DNA from: Desulfuromonas sp. SDB | GTDB taxonomy: Bacteria > SDB-A | Reading direction: 5' to 3' | DNA length: 10,648 nt | Assembly: GCA_001412365.1 (NCBI GenBank) | Contig: LKUE01000329.1 | Location: forward strand, 1-10,648 | Shown here: positions 5,697 through 10,648 of the stretch, piece by piece | Layout of the letters: each line of letters begins with the position of its first letter | Position numbering within the stretch: position 1 is the stretch's first letter | Position numbers and translations under genes: made by a program | The notes under the pieces: model-generated | Databases searched by the model: none | The model's input: the letters and a program-made list of their open reading frames with translations, nothing else | What the model was told of the DNA's origin: nothing

Positions 5697-6038
5697 TCAG
5701 GATGAAGAATGGTTCTGTTTATTTTCAATATTCCGGACAATGAGGAAATAAACTAAAAATCCTAATCCTCCGAAAATCAGCATTAATGCAACCATTAAAA
5801 GATCTCTTTGGGGGACATCAACAAAAATACTTATTACCACTGCGATTCCCGCCCCAATTAACACTAGCGCCCACTTCAAGGCAGGATAAGGGGATTGAGT
5901 GAATAATCCTTTCAGATCACTATTGACTAATTCTTTCTCAACTATTTTATGCCGCAACCGATTATCGGATACTTGCTTAACTATGCCGAATATTAACAAA
6001 AACATTGATATCGGAATAAAAATTTCTAGTACTTCCAT
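5697..6038 (-). CDS. small three-helix membrane protein, DUF6249-like, divergent from ECF sigma factor
   Basis: This 113-residue protein has three predicted membrane segments (about 4-20, 54-73 and 78-101). A charged loop (KQVSDNRLRHKIVEKELVNS, 21-40) lies between the first two, and the tail is short and polar. The layout resembles DUF6249-type proteins, which I recall being encoded beside ECF sigma factors; this recognition is from memory and tentative. The start is well supported: on the - strand, AAGGAGG (complement of 6043-6049) lies 4 nt before the ATG. The gene is divergent from the sigma gene across a 127-bp gap filled with inverted repeats, and a possible ECF-type promoter faces it, so it may be a target or modulator of that sigma factor. 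Biochemical function unknown. Confidence 0.7.
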   Translation of the reverse strand: MEVLEIFIPISMFLLIFGIVKQVSDNRLRHKIVEKELVNSDLKGLFTQSPYPALKWALVLIGAGIAVVISIFVDVPQRDLLMVALMLIFGGLGFLVYFLIVRNIENKQNHSSS

Positions 6039-6071: not shown

Positions 6072-6099
6072 TTAGACATTTAGAAATGAACGATGTTGC
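6072..6099 (-). promoter_or_regulatory. candidate ECF-type promoter for the divergent membrane-protein gene
   Basis: Read on the - strand, GCAACAT (complement of 6093-6099) is followed after 15 nt by GTCTAA (complement of 6072-6077). Many ECF promoters have an AAC-containing -35 element and a GTC-containing -10 element about 16 bp apart, so this could be recognised by the adjacent sigma factor. The first element is one arm of the large palindrome. The predicted start point would give a leader of roughly 25-30 nt containing the AAGGAGG site. The match is by eye only. Confidence 0.3.
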
Positions 6100-6120
6100 A
6101 AAAATTTTTGCAACATTGTT
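6089..6120. promoter_or_regulatory. 32-bp palindrome in the divergent sigma/membrane-protein gap
   Basis: Bases 6093-6104 (ATGTTGCAAAAA) and 6105-6116 (TTTTTGCAACAT) form a perfect 24-bp palindrome with no spacer. Allowing one mismatched pair (6092/6117) extends it to 6089-6120. It lies about midway between two divergent start codons (6038 and 6166). Its symmetry suits a dimeric DNA-binding protein controlling both genes, or two opposed promoter -35 elements (GCAACAT on each strand). A cruciform or RNA hairpin is also possible but less natural because there is no loop. Confidence 0.6.
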
Positions 6121-6126
6121 TAATCA

Positions 6127-6146
6127 TATAGACTCTTATGTCTATA
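6127..6146. repeat. inverted repeat just upstream of the sigma factor gene
   Basis: TATAGAC at 6127-6133 and GTCTATA at 6140-6146 are perfect 7-bp arms separated by 6 nt. The repeat ends 19 nt before the sigma ATG. It lies where the -10 region and start point of the sigma gene would be expected, so it could be an operator or a 5'-leader stem. No convincing sigma70 promoter could be fixed here. Confidence 0.4.
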
Positions 6147-6165: not shown

Positions 6166-6759
6166 ATGGTCGAGGATGAAAAGGAACTGGTTGAAAAGGT
6201 TATCAAAGGTGATCAGGAAGCAGTTAAACAATTAATTGAAGATTATCAAAGGTTGGTGGCCAGTATTGTATGGAAAATGATAAACAATGAATTTGACCGG
6301 GAAGATCTCTGCCAGGAAATCATGATTAAAGTTTATAAAAATATCTCTAAATTCAGATTCCAATCCAAACTATCAACTTGGATTGGCAGGATATCTTATA
6401 ACCACTGTTATAATTTTATTAAAAAGAAGAAAAAAATGATTAATTTCAACACACTTGACCATTTAGATCCGGATTTGATAGGACATTCTGTTTTCGTGGA
6501 GGATTCCAAAAATTCAAAGAAAGAAATAGTTGAAGATAATATTGAACAGATTTTATTAAAAAGTTTGGATAAGCTCCCCCCGGTGTACAAACTAATTATT
6601 AATCTTTACCATTTTGAAAACCTGAGTTACAATGAAATTGCTGAAATAACTGATATGCCTATGGGTACAGTTAAAAGTTATCTTTACCGGGGAAGGGAAA
6701 AGTTAAAAGACATTTTGCAGTGTAATTTTTCAAGGGAGGAAATAACATCGAACATTTAA
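6166..6759 (+). CDS. ECF-family RNA polymerase sigma factor
   Basis: This 197-residue sigma70-family protein contains only region 2 and region 4, as ECF factors do. Region 2 spans about 22-88 and includes the core-binding DREDLCQEIMIKVYKNI (44-60), followed by the -10 recognition segment FRFQSKLSTWIGRISYNHCYNF. Region 4 spans about 136-183, with LPPVYKLIINLYHFENLSYNEIAEI and the recognition helix MPMGTVKSYLYRGREKL. A Lys-rich and acidic linker (86-130) joins them. The SD is weak: AAAGGA at 6147-6152, about 13 nt before the ATG. The gene overlaps a downstream anti-sigma gene by 13 nt, so the two are probably translationally coupled, with the sigma factor held at the membrane until an envelope signal arrives. 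The nearby targets may include the divergent membrane-protein gene. Confidence 0.95.
   Translation: MVEDEKELVEKVIKGDQEAVKQLIEDYQRLVASIVWKMINNEFDREDLCQEIMIKVYKNISKFRFQSKLSTWIGRISYNHCYNFIKKKKKMINFNTLDHLDPDLIGHSVFVEDSKNSKKEIVEDNIEQILLKSLDKLPPVYKLIINLYHFENLSYNEIAEITDMPMGTVKSYLYRGREKLKDILQCNFSREEITSNI
6734..6740 (+). promoter_or_regulatory. ribosome binding site that decides the anti-sigma start
   Basis: GGGAGGA lies inside the end of the sigma gene, 6 nt before the ATC at 6747. This spacing matches that of the AGGAG site of the bactofilin gene. It is a main reason to place the anti-sigma start at the non-standard ATC codon rather than at TTG 6822. Confidence 0.65.
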
Positions 6760-7235
6760 ATGACATCCAGATACAGAAATATATTTTTGAGCATAACAAA
6801 GATCCCGGAGTAGTTGAACATTTGAAGAATTGTCAGCGCTGCGGGGAAACTGTAGAGCAATATAAAAAAATTGGAGATGTTTTACAAAAAGATGAGATCA
6901 AGTTGTCACCTGATTTTTCAGCAAATGTCTTAAAAGAAATTAACCTTTACCGGAATGTGAAAGAAACCTTGAAGGAATATCTTTTTTACGGAGTACTTAT
7001 TTTAATATCAATATTTACCGGAATAATTTTCCTGAATAACCGATCTTTTATTTCTACCACCTATCGTTCCATTGTTGATTTCTTTACCAAGTTAAATATT
7101 TTGAAAAGTTTTAGCTTAGAGCAGATCAAGCTGGCTAATTACAATCCAGCAATTCTGATTGTAATAATCAGTTTAACTTTATTTATTGTAATTCAGTTTT
7201 TAGATTTTAAGTTTGTTGATAAAAATCATCTCTGA
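6747..7235 (+). CDS. membrane-anchored anti-sigma factor with zinc motif, probable ATC start
   Basis: From the ATC at 6747 the protein has 162 residues. The N-terminal part resembles ZAS (zinc anti-sigma) domains: a helix, HLNDIQIQKYIFEHN (3-17), leads into HLKNCQRC (25-32), an HxxxCxxC motif with ligands His25, Cys29 and Cys32; His16 or His3 could be the fourth. Two membrane helices follow (about 77-97 and 134-153) with a short loop between them. The frame is open from 6726, but no ATG, GTG or TTG occurs before TTG 6822. Starting there would remove His25 and the sigma-binding helix. ATC 6747 has a strong SD at ideal distance, so I take it as the start. It overlaps the sigma gene by 13 nt. 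The protein should sequester the upstream sigma factor at the inner membrane. A -1 frameshift product or a sequence error is a less likely alternative. Confidence 0.75.
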   Translation: MEHLNDIQIQKYIFEHNKDPGVVEHLKNCQRCGETVEQYKKIGDVLQKDEIKLSPDFSANVLKEINLYRNVKETLKEYLFYGVLILISIFTGIIFLNNRSFISTTYRSIVDFFTKLNILKSFSLEQIKLANYNPAILIVIISLTLFIVIQFLDFKFVDKNHL

Positions 7236-8720: not shown

Positions 8721-10648
8721 ATGTATAATTTAATCCCCAGATTCATTTGTTCTGCTTACAATCAGCAAATTAGTAAAGGTAGTTTTTTCGGATCCATTCT
8801 CTATGTTGATATAAATAACTACACTAATTTAGCCGATCATTTAAAAAAATTTGAATTTGAAGGAGCAGAACAGCTTTCAGTAATTCTGAATAAGATCTTT
8901 GAAAAATTAATTAAAGCAATTTACCGGGAAAGCGGTTTTGTAAGCAATTTTGCAGGTGATTCTTTAATTGTAATATTTAAAAATACCAATATTGACAAAG
9001 CCTATAAATCTTCTCAAAAAATAAGAGATATATTTATTAAATACCGCATTATTAAAACTTCTTTTGGCGATTTCGATTTATCAGCTAAATTTGGACTCAG
9101 TTATGGGAAAATTTCATGGGGGATAGTAGGTACCGAAGACCAAAAAACTTATTATTTTAAAGGATCTCCCATCAACAATGCTATTAAAATTTCTCAAAAA
9201 TCACATAATTTTCGTATTGAGATAAAGAAACAGAAATTATCAAAACAGGAGAAAGAACACCCCAGAAAATTTAAAGTACACAAGCAAATAAATCTCAATA
9301 CGGTAAAAAAATTCTTCTCTTCTTCTGTAATCAAGTACCCTTATTCAGGTGAGTTCAGAGAAGTCATATCTACCTTTATCGGATTTCCCCATACTGATAG
9401 CTATCAGAAAATAAACAGTTATTCATCGAAATTAATAGATATCGCCAAAATTTATCATGGTTATGTTAACTCGCTGGAATTTAGTGATAAGGGTCCCTTA
9501 TTTTTAGTAGTTTTTGGCGCTCCCACTTCTTACGAAAATAATTTAGTTCATGCCCTTGATTTTGCTTTACAACTGGATAGATTTTTGCCCCGAACTTTTA
9601 AAATAAGCATTTCCTGGGGAACTGTCTATTCCGGAATTTTAGGCAGTAAAACCAGATGCACCTACACGGTTCTGGGGGATGCAGTTAATCAGGCAGCAAA
9701 GATTTTGCAAAAAATTGCCTTTAATGAAATTGTAGTTACCAATCCAGTGTTCAGGAGGACAAAAAATCGCTACAATTATTCAGATTTGCCTCAAATTTTC
9801 ATAAAAGGCAAAAATAAGAAGCTTAAGGTATATAGGTTAAACCATAAGTTGACAAATATTAAGTATTTTAAATCTAAAAATCAGATGGTGGGAAGAGATG
9901 AGGAGTTTAACAAAATTATTGATTTTTTTAATCCTCTAAATCAAATCAAATCATCAAAGATAGTATTAATTACCGGTGAACCAGGAATAGGCAAGAGCAG
10001 ACTTTGTCAAGAGATTGAAAGAAATTTAAATGATAATTTTATTTTTTTCAATTTAAGAGGCGATGAGGTAAGAGATGACAGTTTTTTTATGTTTAAGATA
10101 TTTTTTAAGGATTATTTTTCAATATCAGAGTTAGATTGTAATGAAGATAATCTGAAGAAATTTAATCTTAAATGGCAGAAAATATATGACTCCTTTGTAG
10201 ATAACAAAAATTTCCTGTCTCAAGAATTTGTCAGAACCAAACCGGTTTTATCAAATTTAACCGGATTATACCTGCAAGATTTTCAATTCTTTGATAGATT
10301 GCAGCCAAAAGTCAAGTATTTAAATATAATATCAACAGTGAAAACTTTTTTCCGTGCAGTAAGTAATAAACACCCATTGATAATAATTTTTGATGATATT
10401 CAATGGATGGATAAAGACTCCAAAGAATTATTTGAAGAATTGATGGTTAATATTGAAAACTTTCCCATTAGTTTTATTGCAAGTTACCGTTCTGAATTTA
10501 AAAATTATATTTTTGATTTAGATATACCTAAAAATTATCAAATATTGAAAGTTAATTTAGATAAATTAAATACTGAAACTATATCTGAATTATCCCGGCA
10601 AATTTTTAAAATACAGCCGGATGACAGACTCCTTAATTTTTTAGCTGA
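8721..10648 (+). CDS. soluble-adenylyl-cyclase-like protein: tandem class III cyclase domains plus AAA/STAND NTPase (3' end outside the window)
   Basis: The frame is open from ATG 8721 to the window end, giving 642 complete codons. Cyclase domain 1 (about 22-160) has SILYVDINNYTNL with metal-binding Asp30 and FAGDSLIVIF with Asp80. Cyclase domain 2 (about 205-350) has FSDKGPLFLVVFGAP with Lys257 and YTVLGDAVNQAAK with Thr316 and Asn323. An NTPase domain follows: VGRDEEF at 390-396, Walker A GEPGIGKS at 419-426 and Walker B IIIFDDIQWMD ending at Asp564. This order is that of mammalian soluble adenylyl cyclase and bacterial COG3899-type relatives, which often end in TPR repeats. The protein probably makes cAMP, but the usual transition-state Arg is Lys in both domains (156 and 327). 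No SD is visible; an upstream in-frame stop (8712-8714) fixes the start. It lies 43 nt after the bactofilin gene. Confidence 0.88.
   Translation, partial: MYNLIPRFICSAYNQQISKGSFFGSILYVDINNYTNLADHLKKFEFEGAEQLSVILNKIFEKLIKAIYRESGFVSNFAGDSLIVIFKNTNIDKAYKSSQKIRDIFIKYRIIKTSFGDFDLSAKFGLSYGKISWGIVGTEDQKTYYFKGSPINNAIKISQKSHNFRIEIKKQKLSKQEKEHPRKFKVHKQINLNTVKKFFSSSVIKYPYSGEFREVISTFIGFPHTDSYQKINSYSSKLIDIAKIYHGYVNSLEFSDKGPLFLVVFGAPTSYENNLVHALDFALQLDRFLPRTFKISISWGTVYSGILGSKTRCTYTVLGDAVNQAAKILQKIAFNEIVVTNPVFRRTKNRYNYSDLPQIFIKGKNKKLKVYRLNHKLTNIKYFKSKNQMVGRDEEFNKIIDFFNPLNQIKSSKIVLITGEPGIGKSRLCQEIERNLNDNFIFFNLRGDEVRDDSFFMFKIFFKDYFSISELDCNEDNLKKFNLKWQKIYDSFVDNKNFLSQEFVRTKPVLSNLTGLYLQDFQFFDRLQPKVKYLNIISTVKTFFRAVSNKHPLIIIFDDIQWMDKDSKELFEELMVNIENFPISFIASYRSEFKNYIFDLDIPKNYQILKVNLDKLNTETISELSRQIFKIQPDDRLLNFLA

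Follow-up and report, generated by a model that had tools for sequence, protein, structure and literature searches.

A likely ATC start codon for a ZAS-type anti-sigma factor gene overlapping its ECF sigma factor gene in Desulfuromonas sp. SDB

In the draft genome of Desulfuromonas sp. SDB, a gene for a ZAS-type anti-sigma factor overlaps the end of an ECF sigma factor gene and appears to begin with the codon ATC. We consider it fairly probable that the anti-sigma protein is translated from this codon (position 6747), and that its use shifts the sigma:anti-sigma ratio towards free sigma and makes that ratio dependent on IF3. Provided that the base is right, ATC 6747 is strongly supported by sequence comparison as the only plausible start, because a protein begun at the alternative, TTG 6822, would lack His3, helix 1 and His25; that the base is right, that ribosomes initiate there, how efficiently they do so and with what regulatory effect are what we infer from the evidence below. 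How a sigma/anti-sigma switch behaves depends on the proportion of its two proteins, and a start codon is the simplest means of setting that proportion. If real, an AUH start that occurs naturally in an anti-sigma gene would be the wild counterpart of rsbW mutants described in Listeria and the mirror of sigR in Streptomyces.

The window, by which we mean the whole stretch of 10,648 nt that was analysed, is contig C329 (LKUE01000329.1) of a 3.14-Mb draft genome in 433 contigs, 98.7% complete, and every ORF in it is intact; the features of the locus are given in Table 1. The upstream protein carries Sigma70 regions 2 and 4 only, as expected of an ECF sigma factor, with both Pfam matches over the gathering cut-offs (Sigma70_r2 3.9e-16, Sigma70_r4_2 5.5e-16) and a TIGR02937 score of 109 bits against a cut-off of 42.9, and it is 42-47% identical to its orthologues in three genomes of the same family. 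The anti-sigma frame lies at -1 relative to the sigma frame and is open from 6726 to 7235, after a TAA at 6723-6725, and the two genes overlap by 13 nt at the end of the sigma gene. Reading the orthologous loci showed neighbours resembling the divergent DUF6249 gene in most of them (L004, L005, L006, L010, L011, L013, L014, L023). Elsewhere in the window, the contig end cuts off a large protein (8721-10646) that has an adenylate/guanylate cyclase domain and an AAA_16 domain.

Table 1. Features of the sigma/anti-sigma locus, in window coordinates
Feature	Position	Strand	Remark
DUF6249 membrane protein gene, divergent	5697..6038	-	Pfam DUF6249 4e-13
Putative divergent ECF-type promoter GCAAC-N17-GTCT, intact	6074..6099	-	towards DUF6249 gene
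Putative sigma-directed ECF-type promoter remnant	6110..6145	+	GCAAC 6110-6114, GTCTAT 6140-6145, spacer 25
ECF sigma factor gene, 197 aa	6166..6759	+	upstream partner of anti-sigma gene
Shine-Dalgarno (SD) GGGAGGA	6734..6740	+	within sigma gene, 6 nt before ATC
ZAS-type anti-sigma factor gene, 162 aa	6747..7235	+	H-x21-H-x3-C-x2-C
Proposed anti-sigma start codon ATC	6747..6749	+	aligned column for column with ATG of 7 orthologues
His3, predicted N-terminal zinc ligand	CAT 6753..6755	+	role by analogy with ChrR
TTG, first canonical in-frame start	6822..6824	+	codon 26 if ATC is codon 1; rejected

The anti-sigma frame opens with the codons TTT TTC AAG GGA GGA AAT AAC ATC(6747) GAA CAT. An earlier note on this DNA, made from the letters alone, had claimed that no ATG, GTG or TTG lies between the stop codon and TTG 6822, that GGGAGGA stands 6 nt before the ATC, and that a start at TTG 6822 would delete His25; the coordinates confirm all three, and the residues lost, 1-25, additionally include His3. 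None of the canonical start codons would hence leave the conserved N-terminus of the protein whole. His3 confines the start to 6726-6752, an interval in which ATC 6747 is the sole third-base variant of ATG; AAG 6732 is also one base from ATG, but coincides with the leading edge of the SD. The duplex of GGGAGGA with the anti-SD is calculated at -11.5 kcal/mol, next to -12.2 for infC and a weaker -6.3 for the SD of the sigma gene. As the genome is AT-rich, an ATH codon 5-9 nt past GGAGG is not rare by chance (ATC 2.1%, ATT 3.5%, ATA 2.3% per position), and since the SD-ATC pair alone is therefore weak, the strength of the assignment comes from the exact alignment with the ATG of the orthologues.

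Orthologous pairs were taken from three genomes of the same family (L004, L005, L006/L012), from loci annotated as Zixiibacteriota, KSB1 and Neomarinimicrobiota, and from genomes outside the phylum; twelve anti-sigma proteins, the window's among them, form the alignment (A4), and L023 was read separately. The anti-sigma gene starts with ATG in all 12 other loci, within the family as well as in other phyla, and with ATC in none. This ATG is exactly at the position of the window's ATC in seven of the 12 (starts MKHLDE, MKHVDE, MKHLDE, MKHLTD, MNHLSD, MKHLND and MYHIND, against ATC-EHLND in the window), in L026, L013, L014 and L023 its distance to the conserved His downstream is longer by 1-3 codons, and L011, counted as the fifth of the remainder, starts MALKN. 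The comparison of start codons that the earlier note had proposed thus returned a normal ATG. Because its position is that of the ATC, however, this result does not refute the ATC but pins down the site and lends support to 6747 as the place of initiation. The weak start itself is not conserved, as no orthologue shares the ATC. The sigma alignment succeeded in finding such loci, whereas the anti-sigma protein alone, which diverges too fast, found nothing as a query in the genome contigs. Searches at genus, order, class and phylum level gave no genome beyond the three of the same family, and a search for relatives extended to other phyla. Start-region DNA with N at 6749 had no exact match in viral contigs, which thus supplied no further copy of this locus.

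The protein read from the ATC has several features expected of the ZAS group. His25, Cys29 and Cys32 form an H-x3-C-x2-C motif that is conserved in 11 of the 12 aligned proteins, and His3 is kept in equally many, the exception (L011) being without the other three ligands too. An N-terminal His or Cys is the fourth ligand in ChrR, RslA and RsrA, in the pattern H/C-x24/25-H (PMC6432622); His3 would take this role in the window protein, at a spacing to His25 (x21) shorter than the published 24/25. Among profile matches, zf-HC2 is reached by three of the 12 aligned proteins (best 1.1e-07) and not by the window protein itself, which scores 18 bits for RseA_N, under the cut-off of 24. In an AlphaFold2 model of the ATC-started protein the first 40 residues have pLDDT 89-95, and helix 1 comprises residues 6-14. 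The best solved match of the model is ChrR in complex with SigE (2z2s_F, Z 7.9, rmsd 2.5, 52 residues), with model residues 1-52 superposed on ChrR 4-58 and the next match, an unrelated one, at Z 4.4; Foldseek also puts ChrR at the top of its hits, though with a weak score (E 1.6), and was not relied on alone. The model thus suggests, with moderate confidence, the three-helix ASD fold for the N-terminus, and together with the motif it supports the earlier reading of a ZAS-type protein with an N-terminal helix and a His upstream of CxxC. Two hydrophobic segments near the C-terminus indicate that the protein is probably membrane-anchored. Separately, the orthologue annotated as KSB1 (L011:3552-4043) keeps the ATG and the operon layout and is without all four zinc ligands, and would thus represent a zinc-free ASD.

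Two readings would dispense with the ATC altogether. The protein could start at TTG 6822, without N-terminal helix and zinc site: no canonical start comes earlier in the frame, and an ORF of 137 aa results, but 11 of the 12 aligned proteins keep the three elements that it removes, and no purine-rich SD precedes the codon (gtagttgaacat), which makes it very improbable. Gene callers restricted to ATG, GTG and TTG would nevertheless choose it and cut off the ligand-bearing N-terminus, as the earlier note had foreseen. Alternatively, -1 frameshifting before 6757 could join the two proteins into a sigma-anti-sigma fusion that needs no start codon, and the anti-sigma frame does stand at -1 and is open from 6726. 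We find this scarcely credible: no slippery heptamer of the form X XXY YYZ was found on reading 6724-6759, and the arrangement is not conserved, the frame relation being different in relatives (+1 in L004, L005 and L012) that have ATG starts.

A base error, or a minor strain variant, has to be weighed more carefully. On this reading the population would carry ATG GAA CAT, and the C at position 6749 would be an erroneous or minority call in place of G in an assembly of the metagenome type. It is favoured by the ATG of all 12 orthologous loci, from which ATC differs by one substitution, and by the single draft assembly that represents the species and genus. Against this, 37 gene homologues (37.6 kb) compared with a relative were free of internal stops and of convincing frameshifts, the sole multi-frame case resembling two neighbouring copies, so that the error rate of the assembly is not high, and the ORFs of the window are likewise undamaged. 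In addition, two homology-fixed AUH starts besides that of infC, both third-base changes, were found in the 19% of the genome that was sampled, and a comparable natural frequency is known elsewhere, with fixed non-canonical starts in 6 of 2265 conserved Listeria genes, the same order as in the sampled genome (PMC13068326). Given the clean homologues, the other AUH starts and the Listeria frequency, a real ATC is more likely than an error, and we regard the latter as rather unlikely.

The sample comprised about 587 kb (100 contigs plus the window) and was screened for SD-led non-canonical starts; about three of 465 ORFs have AUH starts fixed by homology. The first is infC, which starts with ATT (L064:4584-5180, contig C13) as it does in G001 and G002 (L049, L050), and the comparison with infC drawn in the earlier note is therefore apt. 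A nicotinamidase of the isochorismatase family appears to start with ATC (L076:15643, plus strand, contig C25) following GGGAGGACAACT with the SD GGGAGGA; the gene overlaps the upstream stop by 8 nt, its product aligns with PDB 1ilw residue 2 to residue 2, and no homologue was found in the three same-family genomes. Finally rsmH, encoding the 16S rRNA C1402 methyltransferase, appears to start with ATA (L093:5705, minus strand, contig C42); it has an SD and begins within the last part of a STAS-like gene upstream, and its same-family relatives start with ATG. Callers limited to ATG, GTG and TTG would likewise cut the N-termini of these three proteins. Cases in which a plausible ATG start follows closely on an ATT or ATC codon (e.g., L130:7038, L130:11690, L142:7394) were left uncounted, and a CTG candidate at L076:8003 lies 7 codons before an ATG. 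Across the genome, ATH codons were not in excess after GGAGG, and AUH starts are therefore rare in this genome too.

For the anti-sigma gene, we propose that the initiator fMet-tRNA would mispair with the third base of AUC at 6747, and that initiation would be aided by the strong SD and by ribosomes that have translated the overlapping sigma gene and terminate 10 nt downstream of the ATC. The output of anti-sigma protein per mRNA would be lowered, well below that from the ATG of relatives, the ratio would move towards free sigma, and it would become dependent on IF3, since IF3 discriminates against AUH codons. A role of the weak start in setting the ratio and tying it to IF3, put forward in similar terms in the earlier note (initiation fidelity, as in infC), is plausible by analogy with known systems, and the anti-sigma ATC is probably a new natural case of a known tuning of start codons. 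In Listeria monocytogenes, changing the ATG of rsbW to ATA or ATT lowers translation of the anti-sigma factor (ATG > ATA > ATT) and raises SigB activity (PMC13068326). There too an AUH codon replaces ATG where the anti-sigma gene overlaps its upstream neighbour, by 17 bp as opposed to 13 here; however, the Listeria strains are laboratory-selected mutants and RsbW is of the kinase type, whereas the window holds a natural assembled sequence with ATC in a ZAS-type ECF anti-sigma gene. Streptomyces sigR starts with GTC and is repressed by IF3 (PMC5472188), and it shares with our case a sigma/ZAS pair, a non-canonical start with C as third base, a strong SD, overlapping genes and, on the mechanism proposed here, a balance of the two proteins that depends on the weak start. 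Apart from differences in codon and lineage, the weak start is there on the sigma gene, giving an excess of anti-sigma, and here on the anti-sigma gene, so that the expected shift is opposite. The infC gene likewise combines an AUH start with a strong SD, yet its weak start is widely conserved and autoregulatory, while the anti-sigma ATC is found in one genome and has no obvious autoregulation. A natural ATC start has been confirmed experimentally for Listeria rnhC, according to work cited in PMC13068326, although rnhC is no sigma regulator.

The upstream region of the sigma gene raises the question of decay. A GNAAC-N17/18-GTC element directed towards the sigma gene occurs in 11 of the 12 orthologous loci examined (none was found in L025), and in 10 of those 11 a second, divergent copy points towards the DUF6249-like gene where the neighbour was read, an arrangement that suggests a bidirectional promoter used by the sigma factor itself. 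The window has no sigma-directed copy with the normal spacer of 17-18. Within 6074-6145 we also note that the GCAAC elements stand back-to-back in a palindrome (GTTGCAAAAATTTTTGCAAC), and that the sigma-directed promoter holds an ATAGAC/GTCTAT inverted repeat. The lineage with the weak anti-sigma start may thus also have changed how the pair regulates itself, through rewiring or early decay. If the circuit were being lost, the ATC would be a knock-down or null of the anti-sigma gene alongside a damaged sigma operon promoter, as the 25-nt spacer and the ease with which disabling anti-sigma mutations arise (Listeria rsbW) would suggest. However, apart from its start codon the anti-sigma gene shows no damage, its frame being open and all four zinc ligands present, and the SD, the divergent promoter and the sigma gene are intact as well. 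A sigma factor without restraint is usually costly. A developmental block is shown in PMC5472188. We therefore judge decay to be decidedly unlikely and retain a functional ATC start.

An extension of the proposed mechanism, which we consider unlikely, is that the AUH starts form a small set in this lineage that is read out by start-codon fidelity and couples the ECF stress regulon to it. Here infC (ATT) and rsmH (ATA) would encode fidelity determinants that are themselves weakly started; relaxed fidelity would give more anti-sigma protein and restrain sigma, tightened fidelity would free sigma, and the altered spacing of the autoregulatory promoter would be part of the same rewiring. The ATA of rsmH could be a second autoregulatory loop of the infC kind, because in E. 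coli initiation at non-AUG codons increases on ribosomes that lack the methyl group added by RsmH (PMC7379855, PMC7600485). As a separate observation, the IF3 of this genome has a 14-residue insertion in its C-terminal domain (the TDRTKSNSPLQNKR region). This domain is the part of IF3 that discriminates start codons. The insertion is absent from the solved bacterial IF3s aligned, and a similar one is present in G001 and G002.
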